Assembly (NCBI GenBank): GCA_025356475.1
Contig: JANXSX010000044.1
Span: 1-64,000 of the forward strand
Direction: 5' to 3'
Length of the DNA: 64,000 nucleotides
Source of the DNA: Isosphaeraceae bacterium
GTDB taxonomy: Bacteria; Planctomycetota; Planctomycetia; Isosphaerales; Isosphaeraceae
The notes under the pieces were generated by a model that saw only the letters and a program-made list of their open reading frames with translations, did no database searches and was not told where the DNA came from. Position 1 is the first letter of the stretch. Each line of letters starts with the position of its first letter. The translations under genes were made by a program, and so were the position numbers. Shown piece by piece: positions 18,234-35,694 of this stretch.

Positions 18234-19085
18234 GGAGAGATCCCCGCGCACGTTGATCGTCCGGGTTCGGGCTCCTCGCGTCGTAGCGTCGGCGAGAAAG
18301 TCAAGACGATCAAGGCTATGGAACTCAACCCCGTCGCGGACTCAAAGTATCTCGAACCGCCGCTCTGAGGCATTTTGTTTCCCAAATACAACCTGGTCCT
18401 CTTCATTGCTTGCGTAAGAACCATCCTTTCGTGGTGGAATCGGTCTTGAAGAACTGAAGGAGCAGATTGCCTACCTTCCGCTGAGTCTGAGCGGACTCGT
18501 GCATCCGGTCGTTTTCCGGGAAGTCGTCGATCCCGAATCGAACGCCATTGCCGCGAGAGGTTGTTCCGTTCGACCAGCAATACGCCACCCAAATCAGTCT
18601 ATGGATATTCGTTCGGATGATGTTCGTTGGCGAGGACTCTTCCCGGGCTGGGACACGCGGGCATCGGTCGGGAAGACCCTGGGGCACCCGAAGAAAAGTG
18701 ATTCCTTGCCTATTCCTGAGGATCGTGATTCTCATGTTGTGACCCTCAGCTTGACGAGTCTTCCTTTTTTCATTTTGAACTTTGATTCTCCATTGAACCG
18801 ACTTTTTGAGAGTTTGATGCACAAGAATATTTGCGAAGGACAATCCAAAAAGATGTTCTAAGCTTCAGAGGCTTTTGGCCTACCCTGATTGTCTCCGAGG
18901 TGATTTGTCGGAGGATCGCGCACGGGAGTCGTGGCGGATCCAGTTTTCATCATGATATTTAGCAGGATTGGTCGATTCCGCGATGTTTGCGGAACTGAGC
19001 CGAAGCGTTCAACGTCTTGATTCCCTGCTTCGGAATCGGGATGGCGGCTCATTCGGGATGTTGGCTCCGAGGAGGAGTACCTCTA
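18234..19085. other. Long intergenic region, no supported gene
   Basis: About 850 bases contain short overlapping frames on both strands (for example 18403-18843 minus and 18499-18861 plus). None has a signal peptide, motif or good RBS. The end near 18234 should hold the promoter of the Gln/Arg-rich gene. Decayed coding sequence cannot be ruled out. Confidence 0.4.
19069..19077 (+). promoter_or_regulatory. Strong RBS that fixes a GTG start
   Basis: GAGGAGGAG lies eight bases before GTG 19086 and too far from ATG 19104, so it supports the GTG as the start of the glycosyltransferase. Confidence 0.65.
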
Positions 19086-20816: not shown

Positions 20817-22301
20817 ATGCGGACCGAGAGCCCCGACTCCCCCCGTTCGGCGTTCGATCGTATGAGATCGCGATTCGCCCAGTTCGGCACATGGCTAGCC
20901 GATCGCCCCTACCAAGCGCGATGGGGGCTGGGCATCGGTGCCGTCGTGATCATCGCGGCGCTCATCTATCTAGCGATCCCGACCGAACCGACCACTATCG
21001 CCTGGCTCGAGAGTGGCAAAGCATTTTCCGGTGAGCACTATGCCTCGGTCGTCAAGGCCCTTGCCTCCGAGGGGATCATCTATCGGCGCGATGGACAGGG
21101 TCGAATCGGTGTGGCGGCTGAGAAACTCCGGGAGGCGCAGACAGCGCTCACGAAACACAAGGTCAAGATCGACACCGTCAATACCCTCTTCGAGATTGAA
21201 CGCGACGTCTTGATCATGGACGGACCCGCAGAACGCGAGCAACGTTCACGAGGATCTACTGAGAAGTCGCTCCAAGCAATGATTGAAGATATTGATAATT
21301 CGGGTATCGAAACCGCAAGCGTGAAGATTCATCGGATCGTAGACCGGGTCGGTATCCGACCACAAACCAATGTTAGTGTCACTGTTTATGTGACGACCCA
21401 GAACAAGCGGAGTTTGAGCGGCGAGACCGTTCAGGCAATTCAAGCGTTCTCCCGGCTGATGATCCCTGAGTTGAAGCCGACTGCGGTCAATCTGGTCGAT
21501 CGCCAAGGACGTGAATACCTATCCTCTAAGAATCCCACCGCTGAGGTGATGTCACTCACCAAAGCGCGTGAGGAGAAGCTCAGCGATGGAATCGCCGAGA
21601 AGCTCGACTTCATCCCAGGCGTGAAAGTCACAGTCCGGATTGATCCACCGCCGGCCCCCATTCCAACGGTAGCCATCAAGTCCGTCCTGCCGCCCGAGCC
21701 CTTCGTTCGGCCCAATCATCCGATCGAGATTACCCCACCCGGAGCGGCGGATTCGGTCGGTTCAATGCCGCCGCAACTGGTCGAGATGACCGCGATGCCG
21801 CAGGGCAAAGCCCGGGTCTTGGTGCAAGTTCCTCGTAGCTTCTATCTCCGAGAGTTCCGCGCAGCCAATCGTCGCGATCCGTCACCAGAGGATCTCGGAC
21901 CTTACATCAATAAGATTCGACTGCTGGTGGATTCGGCAGTATCGATGATGTTTGCTCCCAAAGAAGGGGATGTACACATCGATATGATTCCCGACGAAAT
22001 CGAGCCCTTGCTCGCTACGGGTCTGACTGCGGCTTCGGACGAGCGCCGGGTGGCTCCATGGTGGTTGCCGGTTGGAGCGATGGTGGCGGCTGGGCTGGTT
22101 TTGTCGTTCGCGGCAGTTGGGGCCAGAAGCTTACGTCGTCCGGCATTACGATCAATCGTTCCGGCTCCCCATGCCCGATTCGACGCGGCCGAGATCGCGG
22201 GACCTGGACCTTCGGAACGAGTCCGCGACCTGATCCGCCGTAACCCGACCGCTGCTGCCGGAGTCCTCCAACGCTGGATTGGTCAAGGAGGGCGCGGCTG
22301 A
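20817..22301 (+). CDS. fliF: Flagellar MS-ring protein FliF
   Basis: FliF forms the membrane ring that carries the export gate and C ring. The 494-residue protein has a first span (GLGIGAVVIIAALIYLAI), periplasmic ring-building domains of the YscJ/FliF type and a second span (WWLPVGAMVAAGLVLSFAAV). A cytoplasmic tail ends with RVRDLIRRNPTAAAGVLQRWIG, the usual helix that binds the N-terminal domain of FliG. It is somewhat shorter than typical FliF (about 550). ATG 20817 follows GGGAGGCGAG and is chosen over an upstream in-frame start. Its stop overlaps the next gene (TGATG). Confidence 0.9.
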   Translation: MRTESPDSPRSAFDRMRSRFAQFGTWLADRPYQARWGLGIGAVVIIAALIYLAIPTEPTTIAWLESGKAFSGEHYASVVKALASEGIIYRRDGQGRIGVAAEKLREAQTALTKHKVKIDTVNTLFEIERDVLIMDGPAEREQRSRGSTEKSLQAMIEDIDNSGIETASVKIHRIVDRVGIRPQTNVSVTVYVTTQNKRSLSGETVQAIQAFSRLMIPELKPTAVNLVDRQGREYLSSKNPTAEVMSLTKAREEKLSDGIAEKLDFIPGVKVTVRIDPPPAPIPTVAIKSVLPPEPFVRPNHPIEITPPGAADSVGSMPPQLVEMTAMPQGKARVLVQVPRSFYLREFRAANRRDPSPEDLGPYINKIRLLVDSAVSMMFAPKEGDVHIDMIPDEIEPLLATGLTAASDERRVAPWWLPVGAMVAAGLVLSFAAVGARSLRRPALRSIVPAPHARFDAAEIAGPGPSERVRDLIRRNPTAAAGVLQRWIGQGGRG

Positions 22302-22849
22302 TGAGTGCGACGACGGAATCCATCGCGAGCGAGAACACATCCGCAGTAACCTCGCCCCTGCGCAAAGCGGCCATACTACTGGTAAGTTTGGAGCAACCGC
22401 TGGCATCGCAACTGCTTGCCCAACTCGATCGATCGGCAGTCGAGGCGGTGACACTCGAGATCGCCCGACTTGATCGGATCGCTCCGACCGAACAACACTC
22501 CGTTCTTGAGGAATTTTACGGCTTGGGTTTGCGACGTCTGCGATTTGTCTTCGATGATCTTGTGAAGATGGACGATAAAGTGATTCGGGATGTGTACCAC
22601 GACGAAGACTCACGCGCCTGGGCACTTGCCCTTGCGAGTGCATCTCGACCGGTACGCGATAAGGTGTTGAATGCCCTGTCGGTCAGCTCTTCGGAGTCTC
22701 TCAACAGGACACTCAATCACCTCGGCCCTTTTCGGCTGGATGACGCTGAAGCGGCTCAGGCCGACCTGGCCGAGCGACTTCGACGGCTCCATGACCATGG
22801 CCAACTCACCCTACCCGACCCCGAAGGTCAGGAGGCCATCCTTGTCTGA
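22301..22849 (+). CDS. fliG: Compact FliG-like protein: FliG N domain joined directly to a C domain
   Basis: FliG links the MS ring to the rotor and stator. This protein has only 182 residues, against about 335 normally. Residues 18-78 (LRKAAILLVSLEQPLASQLL to VLEEFY) match the FliF-binding N domain. From about residue 84 (FVFDDLVKMDDKVIRDVY) it matches the C-terminal torque domain; the middle domain with its EHPQ FliM-binding motif is missing. By hand alignment to E. coli FliG, the torque-helix residues K264, R281, D288 and D289 are Ala, Ser, Arg and Thr, and only R297 is kept. A strong AAGGAGGG RBS precedes it. A second FliG-like gene follows. Confidence 0.8.
   Translation: MSATTESIASENTSAVTSPLRKAAILLVSLEQPLASQLLAQLDRSAVEAVTLEIARLDRIAPTEQHSVLEEFYGLGLRRLRFVFDDLVKMDDKVIRDVYHDEDSRAWALALASASRPVRDKVLNALSVSSSESLNRTLNHLGPFRLDDAEAAQADLAERLRRLHDHGQLTLPDPEGQEAILV
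22830..22835 (+). promoter_or_regulatory. RBS that fixes a TTG start for the second FliG-like gene
   Basis: A perfect AGGAGG inside the end of the first fliG-like gene lies six bases before TTG 22842. ATG 22791 lies upstream of it and has no comparable RBS. Confidence 0.75.
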
Positions 22850-23150
22850 CCTCGTCGATTTTGAAGATCTCAACCAGCTCGACGGCGGCGACCTTCGCGC
22901 TGTTTTCGATCAGGTTGAAGAGCCTCTGGTGCTTGACGCACTCGTTGGCTCATCTGTCAACCTGCGGCAGCGGCTCCTGACGACATTGCCGCGAGCCTCG
23001 GCCCAACGGATCGAAGATCACCTCATTACGCACCGTGTGGTCACGTTCGAGATGGCGTTTGCCGCCCAGCGAACGGTGGTCGAGACCATGTGCCGGCTCA
23101 GTCGAGCCGGTATCGTGGCCTTCGATGACCCTGCGGATATGGTCGCATAG
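22842..23150 (+). CDS. Second FliG C-domain-like protein
   Basis: This 102-residue protein starts at TTG inside the end of the preceding gene (8-base overlap) and is led by AGGAGG. DFEDLNQLDGGDLRAVFDQV and the following helices (LRQRLLTTLPRASAQRIEDHL, VVETMCRLSRAGIVAF) align with the FliG C-terminal domain over its whole length, so it looks like a free-standing duplicate. In hand alignment to E. coli FliG, K264 becomes Val, R281 Ala, D289 His and R297 Thr; D288 alone is kept. It may form part of a split or modified C ring. It is not a frameshifted tail of the first gene, because that gene already has its own C domain. Confidence 0.68.
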   Translation: MSDLVDFEDLNQLDGGDLRAVFDQVEEPLVLDALVGSSVNLRQRLLTTLPRASAQRIEDHLITHRVVTFEMAFAAQRTVVETMCRLSRAGIVAFDDPADMVA

Positions 23151-23204
23151 ACAGGCTCATCTGAGATCAACACGTTTCGACCGACCTCGGGAAAGGATGC
23201 CCCG

Positions 23205-23678
23205 ATGTGCCGCTGGATGCCAGGCACTGGATGGTTCAACGACCAAAGGCGCTGGACGAGAGCTTTGGGCTGCTGGGGGTTGGGATTTGTCCTGATCACC
23301 GCAGTCCCAGTTCTGGCCCAAGGTCCGGACCAATCCGCGAATCCACAACGATTGACAATTTCACCTCCCTCGGGGAGGCACAGCGTATTGGCCAGTCCGG
23401 GGTCGTCCTCGACCGGTTGGTGGGCAGGAACGGCCGGCATGACGCTCGCACTTGCAGCCTTCGGCGGCGTGAGTCTGGCGGTAAAGCGTTGGGGTGTGCC
23501 CAGCGTCGGTGAACCGGCACTTCTTCGCGTTGTCAGTCGTACATCTCTGTCACCCCGACACTCCGTTTATGTCGTCAAAGTTGAAAACCGAACCCTCCTG
23601 ATCGGTACTGGCCCCCAGGGTCCTCCGTCAATTCTGGCCGAACTCGCCGCCGCCGACGATCCAGGGGGGGCAGAATAA
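23205..23678 (+). CDS. fliO: Flagellar export protein FliO
   Basis: FliO helps FliP assemble into the export gate. The 157-residue protein has a signal-like first segment, a membrane span (WWAGTAGMTLALAAFGGVSL) and the typical cytoplasmic tail LLRVVSRTSLSPRHSVYVVKVENRTLLIG, matching the FliO pattern of Leu-basic-Ser-Leu, hydrophobic strand and LLIG. Low conservation is normal in this family. Its place between fliG and fliP supports the call. The stop overlaps the fliP start (TAATG). Confidence 0.82.
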   Translation: MCRWMPGTGWFNDQRRWTRALGCWGLGFVLITAVPVLAQGPDQSANPQRLTISPPSGRHSVLASPGSSSTGWWAGTAGMTLALAAFGGVSLAVKRWGVPSVGEPALLRVVSRTSLSPRHSVYVVKVENRTLLIGTGPQGPPSILAELAAADDPGGAE

Positions 23679-24466
23679 TGCGCTGGTTTGCCCCCCTATT
23701 CGGCATGGCAATCTTGGTTCTGATGATAGGCGCTGGCCCCGACTCATCGGCCAACAAGCCAGTTGCCGGACCGTCGCCTGTGCAGGTCGTCTCCGCAAGT
23801 CCGATCAGTCCGGACATCGCCCGAACTTTACAATCCGTCGCCATATTCTCATTAGCACCGCTCGCCGGTGCTGCTGTGCTCATGCTAACGTCCTTTGTGC
23901 GAATGAACATTGTGCTGGTCCTCTTGAGGCAAGCGTTGGGGAGTCCGCAAGTCCCCGGCAACCAAGTCCTGTCGACACTGGCACTCTTATTGACCGCGAT
24001 CGTGATGGGTCCGGCGCTTGAGCAAGTCTACACAAAGTCGATCGAGCCCTACGCTGCGGGCAAGCTGCCTGCCCCCCAGGCGTGGGATCAAGGTGTTGGG
24101 CCGATCAAGACATTCATGCTCACTCAGATCATCAGAACGAAACATGAAGACTACCTCTGGGCCATGTACCACCAGATTGAGCCCCCGAGTCCAGGGCGCG
24201 CGGAACCTACTGAGGCAGAAGAGTTTCCCCTTCGGGCGGTCGCTCCAGCGTTCTTGATCAGCGAGCTGCAAACCGCCCTCTGGATTGGGTTCTTGATCTA
24301 TCTGCCGTTCTTGGTGATCGACCTGGTGGTGTCGGCAGTCCTTGCGGCGATGGGGTTGTTCATGCTCCCGCCTGCATTAGTGTCCATGCCGCTGAAACTG
24401 GTCCTCTTTGTACTTGCCGATGGCTGGATGCTGGTCGCCGGCATGTTGATCCGTGGATTTGCGTAG
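23678..24466 (+). CDS. fliP: Flagellar export gate protein FliP
   Basis: FliP forms the pentameric core of the export channel with FliR and FliQ. The 262-residue sequence has a signal peptide and then SFVRMNIVLVLLRQALGSPQVPGNQVLSTLALLLT, the classic first signature. The second is PAFLISELQTALWIGFLIYLPFLVIDLVVSAVL. The methionine-rich gate loop region is present (MGLFMLPPALVSMPLKLVLFVL). Length and key residues are normal, so this part of the machine appears functional. Confidence 0.95.
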   Translation: MRWFAPLFGMAILVLMIGAGPDSSANKPVAGPSPVQVVSASPISPDIARTLQSVAIFSLAPLAGAAVLMLTSFVRMNIVLVLLRQALGSPQVPGNQVLSTLALLLTAIVMGPALEQVYTKSIEPYAAGKLPAPQAWDQGVGPIKTFMLTQIIRTKHEDYLWAMYHQIEPPSPGRAEPTEAEEFPLRAVAPAFLISELQTALWIGFLIYLPFLVIDLVVSAVLAAMGLFMLPPALVSMPLKLVLFVLADGWMLVAGMLIRGFA

Positions 24467-24495
24467 GATGGGCACGCCCCTCCTTCTGAGGTTTT

Positions 24496-24762
24496 ATGAA
24501 CACGTCACACGTCATCGACTGCTCACGCGAAGCGCTTCGGATGGCTCTCTTACTTGGTGGCCCACTTTTGGTGGTCGCCCTGGTTGTTGGGTTGTTCGTT
24601 GGCGTGATCCAGACGCTGACACAGATGCACGAACCTGTCGTTGCCATGGTTCCGCGACTGGTCGCCGTGCTGCTTGCCGCCTTATTTTCACTCCCTTGGC
24701 TGATCGGTCGTTGGGTGGCGTTTGCAGTCGACCTGATTGGTTCGATTCCCGATCGATTCTAA
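24496..24762 (+). CDS. fliQ: Flagellar export gate protein FliQ
   Basis: The 88-residue protein has two membrane helices and the FliQ pattern LLLGGPLLVVALVVGLFVGVIQTLTQMHE, followed by VPRLVAVLLAALFSLPWLIGRWV. It packs around the FliP/FliR core of the export gate. Length is normal. It lies 29 bases after fliP. Confidence 0.93.
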   Translation: MNTSHVIDCSREALRMALLLGGPLLVVALVVGLFVGVIQTLTQMHEPVVAMVPRLVAVLLAALFSLPWLIGRWVAFAVDLIGSIPDRF

Positions 24763-24784
24763 TAGACGATAGAAGTAAATATTT

Positions 24785-25546
24785 GTGCTGAATTTAAGTT
24801 CACTCGAAGCTTGGATTCCTTTGGTCGTCCCCGGACTTCTCTTGTTCGCACGGGTGGCCGGCATGTGCGCGACCTCTCCGGGATGGTCGACGCCTGGTCT
24901 GTCCTGGCCGATGCGGATTGTGGGGGCAGGGTGGGTTGCGTTCACCGTTTGGCCATTGGTTAGTCCTTCGTTGGTTGTGCCCGAAGGGTCGATCGTCGGC
25001 TGGGCAGTTCTTGGCGAACTGATCGCGGGCGTGACGCTCGGACTGACCGCCGGCTTGATCATCGCGGGTGCTCGGCAGGCCGGTGAGGTTGTGGGGATGC
25101 AAGCCGGCCTCTCGCCCGCAGCACTCTTCGACCCCGAGGTCGGTGATGAGTTAACACCCATGGGGCATCTGTATGGTTTGATTGCCCTTGCTGTTTTTCT
25201 GTCGCTCGACGGTCCCCTTGTGCTCGTAAGTGGCTTGGCCGAGAGCTATCAGACCTGGCCGCCGGGGGGGATTGGCGGTCCTGAAGCGGTCGCCGAGGCG
25301 TTCGCTCGCGTTGGGCAAGCCCTCACTCTGGCCGTGCGAGTTGCTGCGCCTGCGGCTTTGGCCCTGACCTTGGCTGGGGTTGCGATTGGTCTCCTCGGCC
25401 GCGCCGCGCCGTCACTGCCCCTGGTCGCCTTGTCGATGCCGATCCGGTTCATTGTTGGACTCTTAATAATCCTTGCAAGTATTACCACTCTGATATCGAC
25501 CTTGTCGTCGGCCTGGATGGTATCGGGCCTGGGATTTACGAAATAA
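24785..25546 (+). CDS. fliR: Flagellar export gate protein FliR
   Basis: FliR completes the FliP5Q4R1 gate. The 253-residue protein has six or more membrane spans and the conserved segment ARQAGEVVGMQAGLSPAALFDPE, matching the G-x-Q-G-F-A/S-x-A region of FliR. It starts with GTG, and the RBS is weak (AGAAGTAAAT region), so it may depend on coupling to fliQ 22 bases upstream. Nothing vital appears lost. Confidence 0.9.
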   Translation: MLNLSSLEAWIPLVVPGLLLFARVAGMCATSPGWSTPGLSWPMRIVGAGWVAFTVWPLVSPSLVVPEGSIVGWAVLGELIAGVTLGLTAGLIIAGARQAGEVVGMQAGLSPAALFDPEVGDELTPMGHLYGLIALAVFLSLDGPLVLVSGLAESYQTWPPGGIGGPEAVAEAFARVGQALTLAVRVAAPAALALTLAGVAIGLLGRAAPSLPLVALSMPIRFIVGLLIILASITTLISTLSSAWMVSGLGFTK

Positions 25547-25564
25547 TGGCCAAGGAATGTTTTC

Positions 25565-26599
25565 ATGTCCGAGTCTGAAGATCGCACTCAAACGCCGTCG
25601 AAACACCGTCGCGATCAGGCTCGTGAGGCTGGGATTGTGGCGCATAGCCCCGAATTGACCAGCGCTGTCGGGATGCTTGTAGCCGTTGGTTTGATCGCGG
25701 TGCTCGGCGGTAGCCTGATCTCAGGCTTGGTCGAACTGATCCGCGCCCCTTTGGTCGGCACGAACGACCTCTCGGTTGGCCCACTCGAGTTCGCTTCACT
25801 GGTACGCAGCCAAGTTCTCGCCGTGGTGATCCCGCTCTTGTGCATTCTGGTCGGAGCGGCCTTCGCGGCGTTTCTGACCCATCAAGCTCAAGTGGGCGGC
25901 TTATGGGTTCCTTCGAGGATCGCGCCCGACCTATCGCGTCTTGCCTCAGGTTGGCCCGGAATGGGCGCGGGGATGTTCGACCGATTGGGCCGAGGTCTGT
26001 GGGGACTGGCCAAGGCGACGATCGTCGGGGCGGTAGCGGCCTGGGTCATCACGAGTCGCTGGACGGAATTTCAGACATTGGGACGTTTGGATTCCACGTC
26101 GATAACACAAGTGTGTGGCGCGGCAGTGCGAGCACTGGCGGGCTGGTTGGCCTTGTCCATCGTCGTTCTCGGCCTGATCGACTTTGCGATCCAATACGCA
26201 CGGATTGAGTCTCGACTCCGCATGACTCCTGAAGAGTCGCGAGAAGATCTTCGATCGAACGATGGCGACCCCGCCCTCCGAGCCCGCCGCCGCAAGCTCG
26301 CCCAGGGTTGGCGTGCGGACCCTGCCGAAGCTTTGGTCGGAGCCTCCTTGGTCATCGCCGGCGTGGGGGGCCTGACCGTGGTCTTGGGCGGAGGTCCACC
26401 CCCAAAGCTGATCACCTTTCGGGCCATCGCCAAGGGATCAGCGGGGCGTCGCATGAGGCAAGCTGCCGAGACGTCGGGGGTCCTCCTTCATGATGGTCCC
26501 GAACTTGCCAACCAACTCGCTTTACGACGGATGCCGGGCCAGCCGATGCCGATCGAGGTCGCTCGCGAGTTGTCCGCAATTTGGCCACCCGCCATTTGA
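25565..26599 (+). CDS. flhB: Flagellar export switch protein FlhB lacking the NPTH cleavage motif
   Basis: FlhB is the export-gate protein that normally cuts itself at Asn-Pro-Thr-His to switch from hook to filament substrates. This 344-residue protein starts typically (SESEDRTQTPSKHRRDQAREAG), has four spans and keeps the linker EDLRSNDGDPALRARRR. At the cleavage site it reads LVIAGVGGLTVVL, so residues 266-269 are GVGG instead of NPTH. The rest of the C domain (FRAIAKGSAGRRMRQAAETSGVLLHDGPELANQL) still aligns. The protein should therefore not self-cleave. It is the last gene of the operon. Confidence 0.9.
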   Translation: MSESEDRTQTPSKHRRDQAREAGIVAHSPELTSAVGMLVAVGLIAVLGGSLISGLVELIRAPLVGTNDLSVGPLEFASLVRSQVLAVVIPLLCILVGAAFAAFLTHQAQVGGLWVPSRIAPDLSRLASGWPGMGAGMFDRLGRGLWGLAKATIVGAVAAWVITSRWTEFQTLGRLDSTSITQVCGAAVRALAGWLALSIVVLGLIDFAIQYARIESRLRMTPEESREDLRSNDGDPALRARRRKLAQGWRADPAEALVGASLVIAGVGGLTVVLGGGPPPKLITFRAIAKGSAGRRMRQAAETSGVLLHDGPELANQLALRRMPGQPMPIEVARELSAIWPPAI

Positions 26600-26623
26600 G
26601 TTGAAACCAACGAGTGAATGGGC

Positions 26624-26649
26624 TTGACAGATCCTTAATTGCGGATAAT
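26624..26649 (+). promoter_or_regulatory. Weak promoter candidate before the hydrolase gene
   Basis: A perfect TTGACA is followed by GATAAT, but the spacing is only 14 bases; TAATCT at 16 bases is the alternative. It lies 62 bases before the hydrolase start, after the end of flhB. Confidence 0.3.
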
Positions 26650-26710
26650 CTTCGCCAGTTCCACGAAAGAAACCTTCGGTTCAAACCCAATCTTCATGGA
26701 TGAGGTGGGC

Positions 26711-27811
26711 ATGACACGGATCGTCATCCCCTCGCTTCGAGGGGTTGTTGCCTTGCTGATTAGCATGGCAACGTCGCATGCCCTTGGCGGCGAACCACTA
26801 CCGCCCGTCTACGGACATCGCACGATCAACCGCTACGAATTCGGCGCAGGAGCCAAGTCGTATTTCCTATTCGAGCCTGCCGAGCCGACTCCGCTCAAGT
26901 CCCCAGTCATCGTCTTTCATCATGGTTGGCTGGCTTTCAACCCCGGTGTGTACGGGGCCTGGATCGAGCATCTTGTGCTCCAAGGAAACATTGTCGTTTT
27001 CCCTCGCTATCAATCAGACTGGTCGACACGGCCGGCTCAGTTCCTCTCCAATGCTCAGGCGGCTGTTCTTGATGCCATTCATGTTTTGAGAACTTCATCC
27101 GCTCATGTCAAGCCCGACCTCGATAAGTTTGTCTTGATCGGCCATTCCGCAGGTGCGAACATTTCCGTACTCATGGCCGCGTCGGCGGAAGAGGTCGGAC
27201 TGCCCGTACCTAAGGCAATCATCGCGCTCACGCCTGGCGAGGTCCAGAGTGTTCCTGGTCCAGATCTCGCCAGTATTCCCGCTCAGACCTTGCTCGTCGT
27301 GATCGCGGTCGAGGCGGATATCGTGGTCGGTGATGGCCGAGCCCGTCAGATCTTTATTGAGTCACTGGCGATCCCATCCGCGCGCAAGAAATACATCTTG
27401 TATCGATCTGACCGCCGCGGCCTCCCCTGGCTTATCGCCGATCACTTTGCGCCGACCGCTGGTTTGCACAAATTCGATAGTGGCGACGGTCCTTTTCGCA
27501 CAGTACAAATGATGCGTGCCGAGACCAATGCCCTCGACCGAGCTGGCTTTTGGCGGGTCGCGGATATCACGTTTGACGCTGCCTTCCGGGGCAAGACTTT
27601 GGATGAAGCGACCGACCGAGGAGCTGCGTTTCGCACGCTTGGCTTCTGGAGCGACGGTCGCCCCGTACTCCCGCCGTTCGTAAGTGACGACCTGACGATG
27701 ATCCCCCGTGTCCTCCCGCCCCACGGTGTCCGACTGATCCCCTGGACCTCGTCTGAGCTCCTCAAGGAACGAACTGGGGTCGCCGATCGACGCTTGGGTG
27801 AAGAACCTTGA
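26711..27811 (+). CDS. Exported alpha/beta-hydrolase (dienelactone hydrolase/PETase-like)
   Basis: The 366-residue protein has a signal peptide (IVIPSLRGVVALLISMATSHALG) and the alpha/beta-hydrolase fold. It shows the strand and oxyanion segment PVIVFHHGWLAFNPG and the nucleophile elbow GHSAGAN. A His follows near the end of the fold (IADHFAP). The substrate is unknown; esters, lipids or polymers are all possible. ATG 26711 follows GGATGAGG and is preferred to earlier in-frame starts. It lies between the two convergent flagellar clusters but has no obvious link to them. Confidence 0.8.
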   Translation: MTRIVIPSLRGVVALLISMATSHALGGEPLPPVYGHRTINRYEFGAGAKSYFLFEPAEPTPLKSPVIVFHHGWLAFNPGVYGAWIEHLVLQGNIVVFPRYQSDWSTRPAQFLSNAQAAVLDAIHVLRTSSAHVKPDLDKFVLIGHSAGANISVLMAASAEEVGLPVPKAIIALTPGEVQSVPGPDLASIPAQTLLVVIAVEADIVVGDGRARQIFIESLAIPSARKKYILYRSDRRGLPWLIADHFAPTAGLHKFDSGDGPFRTVQMMRAETNALDRAGFWRVADITFDAAFRGKTLDEATDRGAAFRTLGFWSDGRPVLPPFVSDDLTMIPRVLPPHGVRLIPWTSSELLKERTGVADRRLGEEP

Positions 27812-27936
27812 GCGAGGGAGCAAGGCTCTCCTGCCCGAAGTCCCTTCCAACATCGGCACACGGATCGTACTCTATCTCGTGACATCGAGACTTCGAGATT
27901 GAAGCCCCGAGTCGAGTGAGTGAGAGGCCGATCCAG

Positions 27937-29121
27937 ATGAACCGGGCGGAACTCGAAGAGCTTTTGAGTGATGTCGAGTCCGATCGAGTCGAGCGAACGA
28001 TTTCGACGACGGATGTCGAGAAGTTCAGTGAAGCGATTTGTGCATTTTCGAACGACATGGCCGGTAGTCGCAAGCCTGGTTATCTCTTCATTGGTGCCAA
28101 CCCTGGTGGACTCGCCAGCGGAGCGGTGATCAGCGACCAGTTGCTGCAAAATCTTGCAGCCATTCGGTCGGATGGGAATATTTAACCGTTGCCCATGATC
28201 AATGTCCAAAAGTGGTTGATTGATGGGGGTGAGGTTGCGGTCGTCGAAGTCATCCCCTCGGACTCTCCACCAGTTCGATACAAAGGTCGAACCAGCATTC
28301 GCGTGGGTCCTCGCCGGGCATTCGCGACACCTTCGGAAGAGCGGATTCTTAGCGAAAGGCGAATCGATCGCGATCGAACCTGGGACGCGCGTTTCTCTTG
28401 GGAGGCGACTCTCGATGACTTGTCTTTGGATCTCTTTTCACTCACCTATCGACCAAACGCCATCGCCCAAGAAGTCATCGACGAGAATGATCGCCCGATT
28501 GATGTACAACTCGCATCCCTAAGGTTTTTCGACCTCAAAGCCAGCCATCCCAATCATGCGGGTGTGTTTCTCCTTGGGAAAACAGCACGATCGTTTATCC
28601 CGGGCGCCTATGTCAAATATGTGCAATACTGTGGTGAGTCTCAGGCCGATGAGGTCATTCGCGAGAGGGTCCTCAACGGAGATCTTTTGGACATACTGAG
28701 GGACCTGGACCGACTTGCTCGGGATATCGCCGAAAGTCGTCCCGCTGTCACAGCAAATCTGTCAGATCAGACAGTGTTCGATTACCCTCCCCGTGCCATG
28801 CATGAACTATTCATGAACGCAATGATACACCGAAATTATGATAGTTCAACAACGCCGGTGATGATCAATCATTATGTAGATCGGATCGAGATCCAGAACC
28901 CTGGGGGGCTGTTTGGGGACCTGACGGTGGAACAATTCCCCAACGGTACCTCCTATCGAAACCCCATTCTGGCGGAAGCCGCCAAGGTGCTTGGTTTTGT
29001 CAACCGATACGGTCGCGGTGTCAGCATCGTTCAGGACCATCTCCGGCGAAATGGGTCAGAACCGGCGGTATTTGAGCCTCATCCGAATCATTTCTTGGTC
29101 ACCGTTCGGAGACACCCATGA
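27937..29121 (+). pseudogene. AlbA_2 / HATPase_c_4 (Schlafen-like, RecG-related) gene with one internal ochre codon
   Basis: The frame encodes an N-terminal AlbA_2 domain (LEELLSDVESDRVERTIST, then ICAFSNDMAG and YLFIGANPGGLASG). A C-terminal HATPase_c_4 module follows (MHELFMNAMIHRNYD, RIEIQNPGGLFGDL, NRYGRGVSIVQDHL). A single in-frame TAA at 28183-28185 interrupts it at GNI*PLP, where a Leu codon (TTA) would be expected, so one T-to-A change explains it. The rest of the frame is intact for 311 codons. Related proteins are putative nucleic-acid-binding regulators. It may be a recent pseudogene, a readthrough gene or two proteins. The ParA gene overlaps its end. Confidence 0.75.
28189..29121 (+). 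CDS. C-terminal open frame of the interrupted AlbA_2/HATPase gene
   Basis: After the ochre codon the frame can restart at TTG 28189 or ATG 28195, with only a poor RBS. It holds the end of the AlbA_2 domain (VAVVEVIPSDSPPVRYKG, SIRVGPRRAFATPSEER), a helical linker and the ATPase-like C domain. The N-box Glu and Asn (HELFMNAMIH) are kept. If translated alone it would lack the first half of the DNA-binding domain. Its stop overlaps the ParA start by ATGA, so translation of this part may drive the next gene. Confidence 0.6.
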   Translation: MPMINVQKWLIDGGEVAVVEVIPSDSPPVRYKGRTSIRVGPRRAFATPSEERILSERRIDRDRTWDARFSWEATLDDLSLDLFSLTYRPNAIAQEVIDENDRPIDVQLASLRFFDLKASHPNHAGVFLLGKTARSFIPGAYVKYVQYCGESQADEVIRERVLNGDLLDILRDLDRLARDIAESRPAVTANLSDQTVFDYPPRAMHELFMNAMIHRNYDSSTTPVMINHYVDRIEIQNPGGLFGDLTVEQFPNGTSYRNPILAEAAKVLGFVNRYGRGVSIVQDHLRRNGSEPAVFEPHPNHFLVTVRRHP

Positions 29122-30149
29122 AAACAGTCGCTTTTTTCAACAGTAAAGGAGGCGTTGGCAAGACTTCACTTGTTTATCATCTGGCATGGATGTTTGCTGA
29201 AATTGGCATCAATGTTGTTGTTGTGGATCTTGATCCCCAATTAAACCTCACTTCTTTCTTCTTGGAGGACCAAGCTCTCGAAGAACTCTGGGGACCCAAT
29301 ACCTCTCCTCGTACGATTCTCAGAGCGGTTCAGCCACTTATCGATCGAATCGGTGACATCTCTACAACTGAAGTCATCTCTGTCTCCCACCGGATTGGTC
29401 TTGTTGCTGGTGATTTGGGTCTGAGCCGTTTTGAGGACCGACTTGCAACCGCCTGGGGAGACTGCCTTGATGACAATCTCGCCAATTCGCAAGATGCATT
29501 TCAAGTGACAACCGCGTTCTATCGCGTCATGGAGCAAGCGGTAAAGCAACAAGATGCCGAATTAGCACTCATCGATCTGGGTCCCAATCTGAGCGCCATC
29601 AATCGTGCCGCCCTGGTCGCCTCGGACAATGTGGTGATCCCGCTCGCGGCAGATCTTTTCTCCCTACAAGGGCTAAGGAATCTCGGCCCAACCTTGCGGA
29701 GTTGGCGGTCCGGTTGGCAAGCTCGCCGCCAGACCTACTTTCAAAGAAATGTACAAACTAGTAGCGGATTGCTCTCCATCCCATCGGGATTGATGACACC
29801 TGCCGGTTACGTCGTGATGCAGCCTTCAATTCGAGCAAACTACCCTGTCAGGTCTTACCTCAAATGGATCGAGCGGATAGCCGATGTCTATCGCTCGGAG
29901 ATCCGTGATATGCCGCACCTATCCCAGATTCCTGTCCCCTTAGCAACCTTGAAGATTTATCGAAGTCTTGCGCTCATGGCTCAAGAGGCGAGAAAACCGA
30001 TGTTCGAGCTAAAGCCCTCCGACGGAGCGATCGGCGGTCACACTGCTGCGGTTCAAGAGTGCTATCGAGTCTTTCACCGATTGGCGGAGCAGATTGCAAA
30101 AGCCTGTGAAGTGAAGTTACCAAATTTGGAACTCGCTACAAATTCATAG
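29118..30149 (+). CDS. ParA/Soj-family ATPase
   Basis: The 343-residue protein has the deviant Walker A NSKGGVGKTSLVYHLA at the very start and a Walker A' VVVVDLDPQLNLT. A Walker B-like ALIDLGPNLSAIN follows. Such ATPases position plasmids, chromosomes or protein clusters, or act as regulatory switches. No parB or centromere repeat is nearby. The ATG overlaps the end of the AlbA_2/HATPase gene (ATGA), which implies a joint function. Base use is slightly more AT-rich than in neighbouring housekeeping genes, in keeping with an acquired module. It is distinct from the MinD-like FlhG at 31380-32306. Confidence 0.85.
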   Translation: MKTVAFFNSKGGVGKTSLVYHLAWMFAEIGINVVVVDLDPQLNLTSFFLEDQALEELWGPNTSPRTILRAVQPLIDRIGDISTTEVISVSHRIGLVAGDLGLSRFEDRLATAWGDCLDDNLANSQDAFQVTTAFYRVMEQAVKQQDAELALIDLGPNLSAINRAALVASDNVVIPLAADLFSLQGLRNLGPTLRSWRSGWQARRQTYFQRNVQTSSGLLSIPSGLMTPAGYVVMQPSIRANYPVRSYLKWIERIADVYRSEIRDMPHLSQIPVPLATLKIYRSLALMAQEARKPMFELKPSDGAIGGHTAAVQECYRVFHRLAEQIAKACEVKLPNLELATNS

Positions 30150-30260
30150 AAACATATCGTTGTCGTATGTGGTTTCCGGCGACCCATTCTGATCGCTAAA
30201 TCATGGAGTGGCAGCACTCTATATTCTAGTGTGATGGGAATTTGAACCATGTCGCCAACG

Positions 30261-30323
30261 GTGAACACGGAACGAAACAAGGCAGTCGACCCATATTCTT
30301 TGGTCGACTGCCTTGGTGTTCAC
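30261..30323. terminator. Nested inverted repeat between convergent genes, probable bidirectional terminator
   Basis: An inner 14 bp stem (CAAGGCAGTCGACC with GGTCGACTGCCTTG, loop of ten bases) is enclosed by an 8 bp outer pair (GTGAACAC with GTGTTCAC). A nine-base bulge lies on one side only. It lies between the ends of the ParA gene and fliA. No T run follows on either side, so termination may be Rho-assisted. Confidence 0.55.
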
Positions 30324-30347
30324 GAATTCACTTAAGACCTAGCGATC

Positions 30348-31124
30348 TCAGGTACCGAACTCGGGCCTGCGGGCTGAGAGTTGGCCCTGGAGCCGCGTGA
30401 TGATTGAGGAGTGCATCTGGGAGACCCGCGACTCGCTCAGGTCGAGCGTAGCGCCGATCTCTTTCATGGTCAACTCTTCATAATAGTAGAGGATGATGAT
30501 CAACCGCTCGTTGCGGTTCAAACCTTTCGTCACCATACGCATCAGATCTTTGCGCTGGAGACGTTTGGTGGGATCTTCACCTTTTTTATCTTCAAGAATG
30601 TCGATTTCGCGAACATCCTTGTAACTATCTGTCTCATACCATTTTTTGTTCAGACTAATCAGTCCGACAGCGTTGGCGTCGGAGGCCATTTTTTCGTATT
30701 CAGACAGGGGCAGGCCGAGGCGTTCGGCGAGCTCACCGTCGGTTGGGGGCCGGCCATGCTGGGCTTCGAGGCTCTTACGGGCCTCTTCCATCTTGGTGTG
30801 CTTGGAGCGCACCAGGCGTGGCACCCAGTCCATGGTTCGCAATTCGTCGAGCATGGCTCCGCGGATTCGAGGGACGCAGTATGTCTCGAACTTGACGCCA
30901 CGCGTCAGGTCGAAGGCATCGATCGCATCCATCAGTCCGAAGACACCCGCACTGATCAGGTCGTCGAGATCGACTCCCTCGGGAAGGCGCTGCCAGATTC
31001 GCTCGGCGTTGTACTTGACCAATGGCAAGTACCGTTCGACCAGGCGATTCCGCAGGGGCGTGGTGGGCTGTTCCTTGAACTCCCGCCAGAGTTCGGTCAC
31101 ATCCACGTCCAACTTGGTTGACAT
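30348..31124 (-). CDS. fliA: Flagellar-type sigma factor FliA (sigma-28/WhiG family)
   Basis: The 258-residue sigma factor directs RNA polymerase to late flagellar or related promoters. Region 2 (VKYNAERIWQRLPEGVDLDDLISAGVFGLMDAID, VKFETYCVPRIRGAMLDELR) and region 4 (ERLIIILYYYEELTMKEIGATLDLSESRVSQMHS) are complete, and WVPRLVRSK is typical of FliA. ATG 31124 has GGAGG five bases upstream and is chosen over an earlier in-frame ATG. It is last in the flhA-flhF-flhG-fliA series, after a 255-base gap. No FlgM-type anti-sigma gene is visible. Confidence 0.88.
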   Translation of the reverse strand: MSTKLDVDVTELWREFKEQPTTPLRNRLVERYLPLVKYNAERIWQRLPEGVDLDDLISAGVFGLMDAIDAFDLTRGVKFETYCVPRIRGAMLDELRTMDWVPRLVRSKHTKMEEARKSLEAQHGRPPTDGELAERLGLPLSEYEKMASDANAVGLISLNKKWYETDSYKDVREIDILEDKKGEDPTKRLQRKDLMRMVTKGLNRNERLIIILYYYEELTMKEIGATLDLSESRVSQMHSSIITRLQGQLSARRPEFGT

Positions 31125-31379
31125 CCAGACCTCCATGTCCGGCAGCAAGGGGATATCACTTCCTGTGAAAAGCGGGGGGTCGCTCGCATCAAAGATGCTG
31201 ACCTATCAACAGCCACGTCGCCATTGAGCCGTTCGGCCCGCTGGTCGTCGGGGGCCGTACCCCTCGCTATTTTCCCCTCGCGGTCCAAGGAACTCGTGAC
31301 TTACTTAGATATCGGATAACCGACCCATTCGACTTGAGTCGCAAAGCCGAACAATTCGGCACAACCGGCAAATTCGTTC

Positions 31380-32306
31380 TCAGCGACCGACTTGTTCGAG
31401 TGCCCACCGCGCACGGAGCGTGGTGAAGAACCCTGGCCGTCTCGCTCGAGAACCTCGCTCATCGGTCAAGATGCCGGCAAGCCGGCGTGTCGATCGAGAA
31501 GCCAGACCATTTGGTGCTTCAATGAGGTAGGGGCGTCGGGCCCGCACCGCGTCTGGAACACCAAGATCATGACGGATATAGCCGAGTGGCTCGACCACCA
31601 TACCAAGGAACTCGCGACTTGTCGCCGTGATTCGTGACAAGAGCTCGGAGCCCTCGACGTCAGTCCGCGCCTGGTTGACCAGAATGCGGAGCATCGGTGG
31701 ATGTGGTAAGCGCCGGAATCGTCCGATCGCGGCGTGGGCATCCGCAGTGGATGTCGGCTCGGGCGTCGTGACCACCACGACTTCATCAGCCGCAGCGGCC
31801 AATGTCGCGATGGCCGATCCAAGCCCGCTACCGGCATCAATGATCACGTGATCGGATTCCGCCTCAAGTGCGGCGAGACCAGCAGCGAGCCGGGCTGGCC
31901 CATCGGCCAATACCTCGACCAGCGTCCGCATTCCGTGCGCACCTGGAACGATCTTGATCCCTGCCGGACCGTCGACAATCGCGGATTCGAGGGGGCAATC
32001 GCCCACCAGAACGTCGCCAAGGTCACAGCGAGGAGCCAGCCCGCACAACAGGTCGATATTGGCGAGACCAAGATCGGCGTCGACCAGCAGGACGCGACGT
32101 CCCAACTCTCCCAGCGCGATTGCCAGGTTGAGGGCCACGTTCGATGTGCCGACGCCTCCCTTGCCGCTCGTGAACAGCAAAGATCGGGCCTTGGTCTTCG
32201 GTCGTGGAGGTTCAGGCTGAGCTGGTCGTGGAGGTGGATCGGCCAGCCCGGTACTTCCCGAGCGTGCCTGGACCCATTGTCGTAATCCGTCGGCTTGGTC
32301 GGGCAT
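31380..32306 (-). CDS. flhG: FlhG/FleN-type MinD-like ATPase with altered P-loop
   Basis: FlhG controls flagellar number and stimulates the GTPase FlhF. The 308-residue protein starts with the activator motif DQADGLRQ (DQAxxLR). It has the MinD-like signatures LLVDADLGLANIDLLCGL and HVIIDAGSGL. In the P-loop it reads GKGGVGTSNVALN, so the invariant lysine of GKT/GKS is Thr54 (ACA); an AAA-to-ACA change explains it. ATP hydrolysis is probably impaired, while the FlhF-activating N terminus is kept. GGGGAG precedes the chosen ATG. Confidence 0.85.
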   Translation of the reverse strand: MPDQADGLRQWVQARSGSTGLADPPPRPAQPEPPRPKTKARSLLFTSGKGGVGTSNVALNLAIALGELGRRVLLVDADLGLANIDLLCGLAPRCDLGDVLVGDCPLESAIVDGPAGIKIVPGAHGMRTLVEVLADGPARLAAGLAALEAESDHVIIDAGSGLGSAIATLAAAADEVVVVTTPEPTSTADAHAAIGRFRRLPHPPMLRILVNQARTDVEGSELLSRITATSREFLGMVVEPLGYIRHDLGVPDAVRARRPYLIEAPNGLASRSTRRLAGILTDERGSRARRPGFFTTLRARWALEQVGR

Positions 32307-32381
32307 ACTTGCTCCCCTCTGGATCAGTCGTGAATGATGGCGATGACGTGACATTCTCTCAGAATATGATGCGTATGACCG

Positions 32382-33509
32382 TTATTGAACAACCTCATGA
32401 CCTAAGATCAAACGTGCTAATCTCGCCCGATTCGCAGGCTCAATATCGTCGGGAACCGCCTGGCCCGTCGTCAAGTAACTTACAGGTCGATCCGCATGAC
32501 CAAGTACGGAAAGCACCCCGCCCAGGCCGTCGGCTTCATCCAGCTTGGTCAGGATCAACCGATCCGCGCGGACGATGCTGAACCGTTCGACGGCTGCCCG
32601 GAGACTTCGCTCGCCAGCAACCGCACTTAATACGAGGTGGGTCTCATCGGGACGAACCGCGCTCAAGAAGTCGGCAAGCTCACGGATCTTGACCTCATCA
32701 CGCGGGCTACGTCCTGCGGTGTCAATCAGTACGAGATCGACATCCCCAAGCTCTTCGATCGCCCTGCGCATCTCTCCAGGGGCGTTCGCGACAGCCAGAG
32801 GTAAATCGATGATCTCGGCATACGTTCGCAACTGTTCGACTGCAGCGATCCGATAGGTATCGACCGTCACCAGGCCTGTTCGCAGACCATGAGCCAGTTT
32901 GAAGTTCGCGGCCAGCTTCGCCACTGTGGTCGTTTTACCGACGCCTGTGGGACCGACCAGGGCGACAACTCGTCGTGTACCGGGCACCACAGCGATCGGT
33001 GGAGCGATTGGTACGCACCCTTCCACCGCGTCGCACAAGGCGAGCCGGACAGCCTCAGGTCGGGCGAATTCCTCGGGTTCGAGCCGCTCGGCAACGTGGC
33101 GGACCAGTCGTCGTGCGAGAGCCTCGGGGACTTCCGCTTCGAGCAAGTTCGCATAGGTTGGGACGAGCTCTGCGGGTAACTCGGGGAGCAAGTGATCGAT
33201 GCGTCCCTGGCGGCTCAGATCTTCAACCATCGCGTGGAGCCGGCTCAGTTGGTCTCCGAACGAGGCCTGGAAGTTACTGACCGGCGAGATGATGGGGACG
33301 GAGACAGTCGGTGTGTTGGTGGAGGCCGAGGACATTGCGTTGTCAGTCGCGGTGACCTCGACCAATTCGCGGGTGCCCAGGCCGAGGAATCTTCGACGGC
33401 GGACCTCACGCGTGCCGAGGATTACCGCACCTCCGCCCAGGTCCCGCCGGACCTGCGTCAGGGCTTCCTTGAGAGTCGCGGCTCGGTAAGTTCGGGGGTT
33501 CGCGGGCAT
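32382..33509 (-). CDS. flhF: SRP-type GTPase FlhF
   Basis: FlhF marks the site of flagellar assembly at the membrane. The 375-residue protein has a basic N-terminal region (PANPRTYRAATLKEALTQVRRDLGGGAVILGTREV) and a middle linker. The SRP-type NG domain shows GPTGVGKTTTVAKLAA, VDTYRIAAVEQLRTYA, LIDTAGRS and LTKLDEADGLGG. All GTP-binding motifs appear intact. It lies 52 bases after flhA and 75 before flhG. Confidence 0.93.
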   Translation of the reverse strand: MPANPRTYRAATLKEALTQVRRDLGGGAVILGTREVRRRRFLGLGTRELVEVTATDNAMSSASTNTPTVSVPIISPVSNFQASFGDQLSRLHAMVEDLSRQGRIDHLLPELPAELVPTYANLLEAEVPEALARRLVRHVAERLEPEEFARPEAVRLALCDAVEGCVPIAPPIAVVPGTRRVVALVGPTGVGKTTTVAKLAANFKLAHGLRTGLVTVDTYRIAAVEQLRTYAEIIDLPLAVANAPGEMRRAIEELGDVDLVLIDTAGRSPRDEVKIRELADFLSAVRPDETHLVLSAVAGERSLRAAVERFSIVRADRLILTKLDEADGLGGVLSVLGHADRPVSYLTTGQAVPDDIEPANRARLARLILGHEVVQ

Positions 33510-33561
33510 CTGGTCACCCCTCTGGATTCGAGATCACTTGAATGATTTCTGCGATACTAAG

Positions 33562-35694
33562 TTAGCCGATTGTCACAGCGGTACTCATATTATTGACTGT
33601 CTGACTTTCATCCTCAATGACGAGGCCAACGGTCTCGACCGGGGTATCGCGAGGAATCTCGCGCTGGCTGAGGACGACGAGTCGGTGCAGATCGGCACGG
33701 GTGAGATCCTTGAGAACGGGTCTCGCCTCAGGCGAGCAGAGAACGATCGGCGGGTGGCCTTCCTCAATGAGTGGCTCGACCGCGTGGGCCACGGCCCGGA
33801 TCAAAGCGCGGGTCGCCTCCGCGCCAAGTAGAGCTGAGGGACGGGTTTCCGACTGACCACCGATCGCCATCAACTTCAAGTCGAGCGACCTGGGGATGCT
33901 GATCACACGAAGATGACCATCTGTGCCGAGGTAACTTTGGGTGATTCGCCTGGCGAGGCCTCGCCTTACGTGTTCGGTCAAGGCGTCGGTATCACGGGTC
34001 CGGCTTGCCTCCATCGCGAGGGTTTCCAGAATCGTTTCCAGGTCACGGATACTGACCCGCTCCCGGAGTAGATTCTGCAAGACCCGCTGGACTTCACCGG
34101 CGCGGAGCAGGCCTGGGATAACTTCGTCAACCAGGGTAGGGGAGGTGGTCCTGACCCGATCGAGCAGCCTCCCCACCTGTTCACGTGTCATGAGTTCATC
34201 GACATGCGAGAGGACGATTTCGGCGAAGTGCCCCGCGACGACTGCGGATGCTTCGAGCACTCGGCAACCTGCGAGTTCAGCCACTTCGCGACCGTCAGCA
34301 TGAATCCAGACCGCTGGCTGGCCTGAGACCGGCTCAACGCCGTCTCGCCCGGTCGGTTGTGAGACCAATCCTTGGGGAGGAATTGCCAGAAGGCGACCGG
34401 CGTAGGCAACCCCTTGGCCCACGACTGCGCCTCGGATCTTCAAGCGGTAGTCATGAGGTCCCAAGCCGATCTCATCGCGAATTCGTACTTGGGGCACGAT
34501 CACGCCAAGATCGCGAGCGACCCGCTGTCGAATCGATCGAAGTCGTTCGAGCAGGTCACCTCCCCGGGTCGGCTCGGCGAGCGAGATCAGGCGATAGCCG
34601 ATCTCAAGCTCGAGCGGATCGACCTGGAGGAGATCCTCCATACGGTCAACGGGAACTTCCTTCGCTTCCTGGACGCTCGCTTCGTGCTCCGGACGCACGC
34701 TTGCAGTCCGCTTACGCGTTGCGAGAACGTAGGAGCCTGTCCCTAACGCAGCCGCAAGGGTCAAGAGCGGGGCTTTGGGGAGTTCGGTCAAAGAAAGCAG
34801 GACAAGGAAGACGGCCGCAGCGCCTAAGACCTCGGGTCGACCGAAGAGTTGGCTCGTCACATCCTTGCCGAGATCGCTCTCCGACGAGGACCGAGTCACG
34901 ATCAAGCCTGCTGCAAGTGAGATCAGGAAGGCAGGCACCTGACTGACAAGGCCATCACCGATGGTGAGCTTGGTGAAGATCTCGACTGCTTCGCCGATGT
35001 TCATCCCGTGGACGACGATCCCCATATAGAGGCCGCCGAGAATGTTCACAAAGGTGATCGCGACACCTGCCACGGCGTCACCTCGGACGAATTTCCCAGC
35101 CCCGTCCATTGCTCCGAAGTAGTCGGCCTGACGATAGACCAGGTCGCGACGTCGGGCGGCTTCGTGTCCGTCGATGATATTCGCGTGCAGGTCGGCGTCG
35201 ATCGCCATCTGGCGACCGGGGAGACCATCAAGCATAAATCGGGCCGCCACTTCGCTGATACGAGTGGCCCCTTTGGTGATCACGACGAACTGGATGACCA
35301 CGAGGATCGCGAACAAAATCGCGCCGACCACGACCTGATCACCAGCAACGAACTCGCCGAACGCCCGGATCACGCCCCCCGCCGCATCAAGGCCTTTTTC
35401 GCCCCCTTGGGTGAGGACGAGTCGGGCAGTTGCGACGTTGAGGACCAAACGCGTCAGGGTGGTTGTTAGCAGTATTGTTGGGAACGCGCTAAACTCTTGG
35501 GGGCTCTTAATCGCAAGCGTGGTCAAGAGAACGAGCACGCCGAGGGTGATGTTTGCCGAGAGCAAAATGTCGAGCGCCCAGGCCGGGACCGGAACGACGA
35601 AGACGAGGATCGCGCCGATGATTGTGATCGGTAACACCACGCCAGTCAGGCGTGAGATACCGACCGATTCGCCGATGGGCGGTGTGGGAGGCAT
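33562..35694 (-). CDS. flhA: Flagellar export gate protein FlhA
   Basis: FlhA forms the nonameric export gate that couples proton flow to export and binds substrate-chaperone complexes. The 710-residue protein has eight spans in the first half. It carries the FHIPEP signature RISEVAARFMLDGLPGRQMAIDADLHA, with Arg in place of the common Lys, and FVRGDAVAGVAITFVNILGG. The cytoplasmic C domain starts near residue 340. Length is normal. GAGGAGAGG precedes the ATG. It is the first gene of the minus-strand flagellar cluster. Confidence 0.95.
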   Translation of the reverse strand: MPPTPPIGESVGISRLTGVVLPITIIGAILVFVVPVPAWALDILLSANITLGVLVLLTTLAIKSPQEFSAFPTILLTTTLTRLVLNVATARLVLTQGGEKGLDAAGGVIRAFGEFVAGDQVVVGAILFAILVVIQFVVITKGATRISEVAARFMLDGLPGRQMAIDADLHANIIDGHEAARRRDLVYRQADYFGAMDGAGKFVRGDAVAGVAITFVNILGGLYMGIVVHGMNIGEAVEIFTKLTIGDGLVSQVPAFLISLAAGLIVTRSSSESDLGKDVTSQLFGRPEVLGAAAVFLVLLSLTELPKAPLLTLAAALGTGSYVLATRKRTASVRPEHEASVQEAKEVPVDRMEDLLQVDPLELEIGYRLISLAEPTRGGDLLERLRSIRQRVARDLGVIVPQVRIRDEIGLGPHDYRLKIRGAVVGQGVAYAGRLLAIPPQGLVSQPTGRDGVEPVSGQPAVWIHADGREVAELAGCRVLEASAVVAGHFAEIVLSHVDELMTREQVGRLLDRVRTTSPTLVDEVIPGLLRAGEVQRVLQNLLRERVSIRDLETILETLAMEASRTRDTDALTEHVRRGLARRITQSYLGTDGHLRVISIPRSLDLKLMAIGGQSETRPSALLGAEATRALIRAVAHAVEPLIEEGHPPIVLCSPEARPVLKDLTRADLHRLVVLSQREIPRDTPVETVGLVIEDESQTVNNMSTAVTIG

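Follow-up and report, generated by a model that had tools for sequence, protein, structure and literature searches.

Flagellar export genes kept without flagella are known from other bacteria. Lysobacter enzymogenes OH11 has an export core that includes fliI but no flagella, and a non-flagellar phenotype has been described for it (PMC7277350). A secretin-less "Myxo" non-flagellar type III secretion system (T3SS), derived from the flagellum, has long been conserved in Myxococcales (PMC3459982), and a "hat" structure has been linked to FlhA_C and FliP rather than to the rod or filament (PMC9380563). Here we describe twelve flagellar-type genes in a window of 64,000 nucleotides (positions 1-64,000) from an Isosphaeraceae bacterium of the class Planctomycetia, whose genome, 99.98% complete at 5.9 Mb, is split into 232 contigs. 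A first-pass annotation made from the letters alone had read these genes as a possibly non-rotary export system, and Pfam and TIGR profile matches place every gene it named where it had put them. We regard the cluster as a functional non-flagellar remnant, neither a flagellum nor a decaying relic (probability roughly 0.9). A comparison of four family members found flagellar assembly genes poorly represented and no motile swarmer cells (PMC5352709); our literature search found no description of the export core that Isosphaeraceae retain.

Parts kept and parts missing in Isosphaeraceae

We ran profile searches on as many as 119 genomes of this class, 45 of them Isosphaeraceae, together with 14 control genomes. 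FlhA was found in 42 of the 45 Isosphaeraceae and FliP in 39, the six without a FliP match being 64-85% complete. The remaining flagellar parts are essentially missing across the family. Flagellin (PF00669) matched none of the 45 genomes but 57 genomes of other families, and FliI exceeded the TIGR01026 cut-off in none, as against 56 genomes elsewhere; since this model covers FliI/YscN, the same search serves for the injectisome ATPase SctN, and none was found above its cut-off. FliE was absent from all 43 genomes sampled, FliK passed its cut-off in one of 43 (G002), MotB (PF13677) did so in no Isosphaeraceae genome, and the rod/hook domain (PF00460) was matched in three of 45 (G002, G024 and, as a weak match, G016). 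Separate FliM and FliN proteins were not found in the family, where SpoA-domain proteins number at most one per genome. The window's own genome yielded no flagellin, rod, MotB, FliE or FliK, and no FliI above cut-off, in keeping with the non-rotary reading. In almost every flagellated sister family, the same searches recover the missing parts. The FliK match of G002 lies with FlgE on a 6.2-kb contig (L152, G002:C92) of a genome that is 5% contaminated and has neither FlhA nor FliP, and G024 carries a lone FlgB (L153, G024:C511); these isolated genes are either contamination or remnants. No secretin or needle gene was seen in the cluster, and no genome-wide search was aimed at a dedicated secretin. 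Of the components of a bacterial flagellum, the family thus has the gate (FliPQR, FlhA and FlhB) and no filament, rod, hook, FliE, FliK, FliI, MotB or cytoplasmic ring (C-ring) as a rule. Of an injectisome it has neither the ATPase nor a gate closer to Sct proteins, as flagellar models outscore Sct models on FliP, FliQ, FliR and FlhA, and the two are nearly equal on FlhB.

Judged from its sequences, the export gate is intact, conserved and under purifying selection in Isosphaeraceae, as the first-pass annotation had suggested for FliP, FliQ, FliR and FlhA. In 27 non-redundant FlhA proteins of the family and six orphan FlhAs from a second lineage (see below), R94, R147, R154, D158, R185, D199, D208, D249, R270 and G368 are invariant and K203 is nearly so. 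The charged residues among these belong to the membrane part of FlhA and its loop. Proton binding has been proposed for R147, R154 and D158, and the role of D208 is debated (PMC7911332); export by the Salmonella flagellum has been reported to be possible without its ATPase (PMC4230889). The ratio of nonsynonymous to synonymous substitution rates (dN/dS) between two Singulisphaera genomes, the cleanest pair given that open-frame boundaries blur the others, ranges from 0.02 to 0.35 across all twelve genes, with values of 0.02 for FlhF, 0.03 for FliA, 0.06 for FlhA, 0.09 for FlhB and 0.33 for FliP.

The cytoplasmic side of FlhA has changed in a particular way. In Salmonella, chaperone-filament cargo docks in a dimple that includes D456, F459 and T490 (PMC10965912). 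All 33 Isosphaeraceae and orphan sequences differ at F459 and T490, where all 24 type-A flagellar FlhAs have F or Y and T, respectively; V482 and T454 are lost along with them in both lineages. Among 246 columns conserved in the 24 type-A sequences, 31 are lost in Isosphaeraceae, 19 in the orphans and 11 in both (hypergeometric p 8e-7, and 0.003 in the cytoplasmic domain, a calculation that ignores rate differences between sites). As a separate observation on FlhA, ten genomes of another family, f5 (G048, G057, G065, G068, G071, G083, G086, G101, G107 and G113), carry beside the full gene a second open frame of about 510 amino acids that covers only the cytoplasmic half (profile positions about 310-656; for example, G071:C1:5629209-5630222).

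The first-pass annotation had singled out FliG, FlhB and FlhG as altered in features specific to rotation, substrate switching and number control, and the first two of these changes stand. In FliG1 the middle domain with its EHPQ FliM-binding motif is gone from all 13 members aligned, and the torque charges K264, R281, D288 and D289 (E. coli numbering) are not kept as a rule. FlhB has G-V-G-G (about 26360-26371) in place of the autocleavage motif NPTH, which has disappeared from every Isosphaeraceae member with an alignable C-domain, whereas flagellated relatives have NPTH or NPTE; the cytoplasmic domain is still predicted to fold, with moderate confidence. A nearby GGPPPR was considered as the substitute and rejected, because the alignment pairs NPTH with the preceding G-x-x-G. 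The change in FlhG fared differently. Its Walker A motif reads KGGVGTS instead of KGGVGKS/T, but the P-loop lysine is missing from flagellated relatives too (GGVGTTT, GGVGVST, VGVGATT) and the N-terminal FlhF-activating motif is intact (DQADGLR, for DQAxxLR), so that this change is uninformative about a loss of rotation or number control.

FliF is predicted to retain ring-building motifs 1 to 3 (RBM1-3) and two membrane helices. Its AlphaFold model (mean predicted local distance difference test score 66) matches FliF chains of the membrane-supramembrane ring (MS-ring) in Foldseek, with the ring-building domains kept. Compared with E. coli, the insertion in RBM3 from which the beta-collar forms is shortened by about 50 residues, and it is predicted to be disordered; the most conserved part of the protein is the C-terminal FliG-binding tail.

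Orphan cores in a second family

A comparable core occurs in family f2, which is probably Pirellulaceae. In three of its genomes (G084, G087 and G117) FlhA and FliP occur but FliI, rod and flagellin do not, and three others (G058, G060 and G093) have both such an orphan core and a distinct second flagellar set. The six orphans group together in the FlhA tree (support 97/98), nested among the native flagellar FlhAs of f2 and apart from Isosphaeraceae (100/100). The FliP tree is concordant, with Isosphaeraceae at 98/95 and the orphans nearest a flagellar f2 sequence at 92/91. Because both trees place the orphans apart from Isosphaeraceae, the core has been kept twice, independently. FliOPQR and FlhA were retained in the orphan lineage, where only one of the six genomes shows FliF beside the core. 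Where FlhB was found in the orphan loci (L085-L090, L095 and L097-L101), it is truncated or has no NPTH; the cleavage site is lost in both lineages. Family f8 and part of f3, in the same class, have lost FlhA and FliP altogether, which indicates that retention of the gate is not automatic. Genes conserved next to the core were considered as candidate cargo, but none beyond the core itself is common to both lineages. A flagellum-bearing f2 genome also holds a third, very divergent FlhA/FliP/FliI set (L092, G063 contig 1), possibly a non-flagellar T3SS.

Gene order, neighbours and the SpoA-domain protein

FlhA comparison identifies Singulisphaera, Aquisphaera, Tautonia and further Isosphaeraceae as close relatives. 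In the other genera the genes run in one direction, fliF-fliG1-(fliG2)-fliO-P-Q-R-flhB-flhA-flhF-(flhG)-fliA; one half of the cluster in the window is thus inverted relative to the other (Table 1).

Table 1. Export-core genes of the window, with the matches that identify them
Product	Position	Strand	Basis and remarks
FliF (MS-ring)	20817..22301	+	Pfam PF01514, E 4e-16; in-frame start at 20715 possible
FliG1, FliG_N fused to FliG_C	22301..22849	+	Pfam; aligned against E. coli and relatives
FliG2, separate second FliG_C-type protein	22842..23150	+	Pfam PF01706, E 2e-10
FliO	23205..23678	+	Pfam PF04347, E 9e-8
FliP	23678..24466	+	Pfam PF00813, E 1.5e-62; TIGR01103
FliQ	24496..24762	+	Pfam PF01313; TIGR01402
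FliR	24785..25546	+	Pfam PF01311; TIGR01400
FlhB without N-P-T-H autocleavage site	25565..26599	+	Pfam PF01312; alignments; model
FliA/WhiG-family sigma factor	30348..31148	-	TIGR02479 above cut-off; start probably a few codons downstream
FlhG/MinD-type ATPase	31380..32354	-	start probably 32306
FlhF GTPase	32382..33509	-	TIGR03499 above cut-off
FlhA	33562..35694	-	Pfam PF00771, E 1.3e-233; alignment columns

The TTG start of fliG2 overlaps the stop codon of fliG1. Only part of the Isosphaeraceae carry fliG2, flhG too was not found in several members, and in some genomes the two halves of the cluster lie apart. In the window the halves are separated by three unrelated genes at 26639-30149 (a hydrolase, a RecG-type HATPase and a ParA), which are not part of the export system; the RecG-type HATPase_c_4 protein and the ParA ATPase (28189-30149) were not found near the cluster in relatives. 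Two PMT_2-type glycosyltransferases are encoded at 1776-3548 and 19017-20474, and in three other genera (L038, L070 and L075) a homolog of the former adjoins fli/flh genes.

A single protein carrying a SpoA (FliM/FliN/SctQ) domain at its C terminus is present in 34 of the 45 Isosphaeraceae. In the window's genome it is encoded on another contig (L050:178-1320, minus strand), within a six-gene operon (L050:178-6913, G000 contig 152) for a PAS histidine kinase, two response regulators, a response regulator-kinase, a 284-amino-acid protein (K284) and the SpoA protein. This operon recurs at L051-L069 and is conserved in many genera of the family, the SpoA gene lying in many of them behind histidine kinases and response regulators. 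K284 adjoins the SpoA gene in 18 of 20 loci, the other two lying near a locus or contig end or giving no match. Because no SpoA match was obtained in four genomes that keep the core (G004, G010, G011 and G019), a partnership between this protein and the gate is suggestive only. No relative of the first 300 residues of the SpoA protein was detected, and no family for K284. Orthology with the third SpoA protein of flagellates was also considered and set aside: the profile that suggested it had been iterated over all of these proteins, and a profile built from Isosphaeraceae SpoA proteins alone showed no preference for the flagellates' third protein. For FliA, a putative planctomycete promoter, CTAAW-N16-KCCGAT, lies upstream of flagellin genes (L142, L145, L146 and L151).

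Function, rival explanations and known systems

Since the gate has been kept under strong selection after loss of the flagellum, and twice independently, it very probably does some non-flagellar job. Descent of the core from an ancestral planctomycete flagellum would best explain the sequences, and for Isosphaeraceae we lean somewhat towards protein export as the job. In such a machine FliF would form the ring, FliPQR-FlhB the pore, and FlhA the motor and docking ring; FliG1 would sit on the cytoplasmic tail of FliF, and FlhF would usually serve placement. With no ATPase, rod, hook, filament or stator, FlhA would couple the proton motive force to the passage of unfolded, non-chaperoned cargo across FliPQR; lacking any structure above it, FliPQR would open into the periplasm. 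FlhB would no longer switch substrate class, and FliA would transcribe some regulon. The idea that the gate was kept for another cargo is thus borne out as far as the lost filament-cargo dimple and the selection on the gate go, and the other cargo, and export itself, are what we would propose from them. Several observations weigh against export. The analysis turned up no cargo, chaperone or outer-membrane exit, and a search for FliA-controlled genes by the flagellin-type promoter motif gave no enrichment in the window's genome (7 matches versus 11 in the control). The rate of evolution is higher in FliO and FliP than in FlhA and FliA. The periplasmic part of FliF is poorly conserved (30-37% for the whole protein) next to its strongly conserved FliG-binding tail, a sequence pattern that would also suit a scaffold.

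Such a scaffold is the main rival to export. FliF, FliG1, FlhF and FlhA would form a non-secretory inner-membrane platform or signalling hub that marks a cell site, such as the budding pole, or gates FliA, and nothing would be exported. The cytoplasm-facing and regulatory parts are indeed the most conserved (FliA at 85-97% identity across Isosphaeraceae, FlhF at up to 83%, the FliF tail and FliG1), the single SpoA protein of many members shares an operon with two-component regulators, and the flagellar export genes of L. enzymogenes OH11 affect type IV pilus twitching (PMC7277350). Against a hub stand the proton-coupling charges of FlhA and the pore protein FliP, which are kept in every sufficiently complete genome and in two lineages, and the FliOPQR and FlhA that the orphan lineage mostly retains with no FliF beside them; we consider it unlikely, though deserving of attention. 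A connection with the hat structure, or with the membrane nanotubes reported in other bacteria, appears improbable. Loss of flagellar FlhA_C and FliP function alters the hat, which needs neither FliF nor any visible flagellar intermediate (PMC9380563), and the Isosphaeraceae gene set is close to the one linked with it; yet the structure is described only in species of Proteobacteria and Bacilli with flagellar export genes, with no planctomycete in the table, and fliF-fliG is kept in Isosphaeraceae, whereas the hat has no need of FliF.

The two remaining explanations have very little room. Outer parts too divergent for the profiles could hide a complete flagellum or injectisome, and the FlgE and FliK contig of the metagenome-assembled genome G002 and the FlgB of G024 might be taken as its traces. 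FliI, flagellin, FliE, rod, FliK and MotB are nevertheless found easily in sister families by the same searches, the described members make no motile swarmer cells (PMC5352709), the filament-cargo dimple of FlhA is lost, and G002 is the contaminated genome with neither FlhA nor FliP; this reading is very improbable. That the cluster is simply decaying would fit the absent flagellar genes, the internal deletion in FliG and the loss of FlhB cleavage. Decay is hard to square with open frames throughout the family, a conserved order of genes, a dN/dS well under 1 in the Singulisphaera pair and the same core kept twice, or with the fact that other non-flagellate members of the class have lost FlhA and FliP completely, and we disfavour it as barely credible.

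More tentatively, the flagellar gate of Planctomycetia may have a second, flagellum-independent function and may be kept and remodelled alike when the flagellum is lost or replaced, with the proton motor preserved but the chaperone dimple and the FlhB switch gone, giving a distinct class of ATPase-free, axis-free periplasmic type III exporters. A natural, family-wide and twice-evolved type III gate pared to ring, pore and proton motor makes the role of the gate without ATPase and axial structure testable, together with any flagellum-independent role of the export core, which bears on the hat structure, on the nanotube reports and on models of secretion systems arising from flagella. Cultured hosts exist in Singulisphaera acidiphila, Isosphaera pallida, Aquisphaera and Tautonia.

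Among the closest known systems is the native flagellum of the class (for example in G053, G066 and G113), which has the same flhA-flhF-flhG-fliA and fliO-P-Q-R-flhB order and a core that groups with that of Isosphaeraceae in the trees, consistent with direct descent. The Isosphaeraceae set differs from it in having no FliI, FliE, rod, hook, FliK, filament or MotB, no FliG middle domain, an uncleavable FlhB and a changed FlhA dimple. The Myxo T3SS is likewise without motility parts and secretin (for Isosphaeraceae, the cluster was inspected and no genome-wide secretin search was made), but it belongs to the injectisome branch (PMC3459982), while FlhA, FliP, FliQ and FliR here match best as flagellar proteins and come from the local flagellum. 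The hat is likewise associated with FlhA_C and FliP and not with rod or filament, and has so far been seen in phyla other than planctomycetes (PMC9380563). L. enzymogenes OH11 shares the export core without flagella, but it can export heterologous flagellin with its fliI in place (PMC7277350), whereas Isosphaeraceae have neither the ATPase nor the dimple, a condition that is fixed throughout the family and has arisen on two occasions. It is this family-wide, twice-evolved and ATPase-free version, with matching residue losses in both lineages, that appears to be new.

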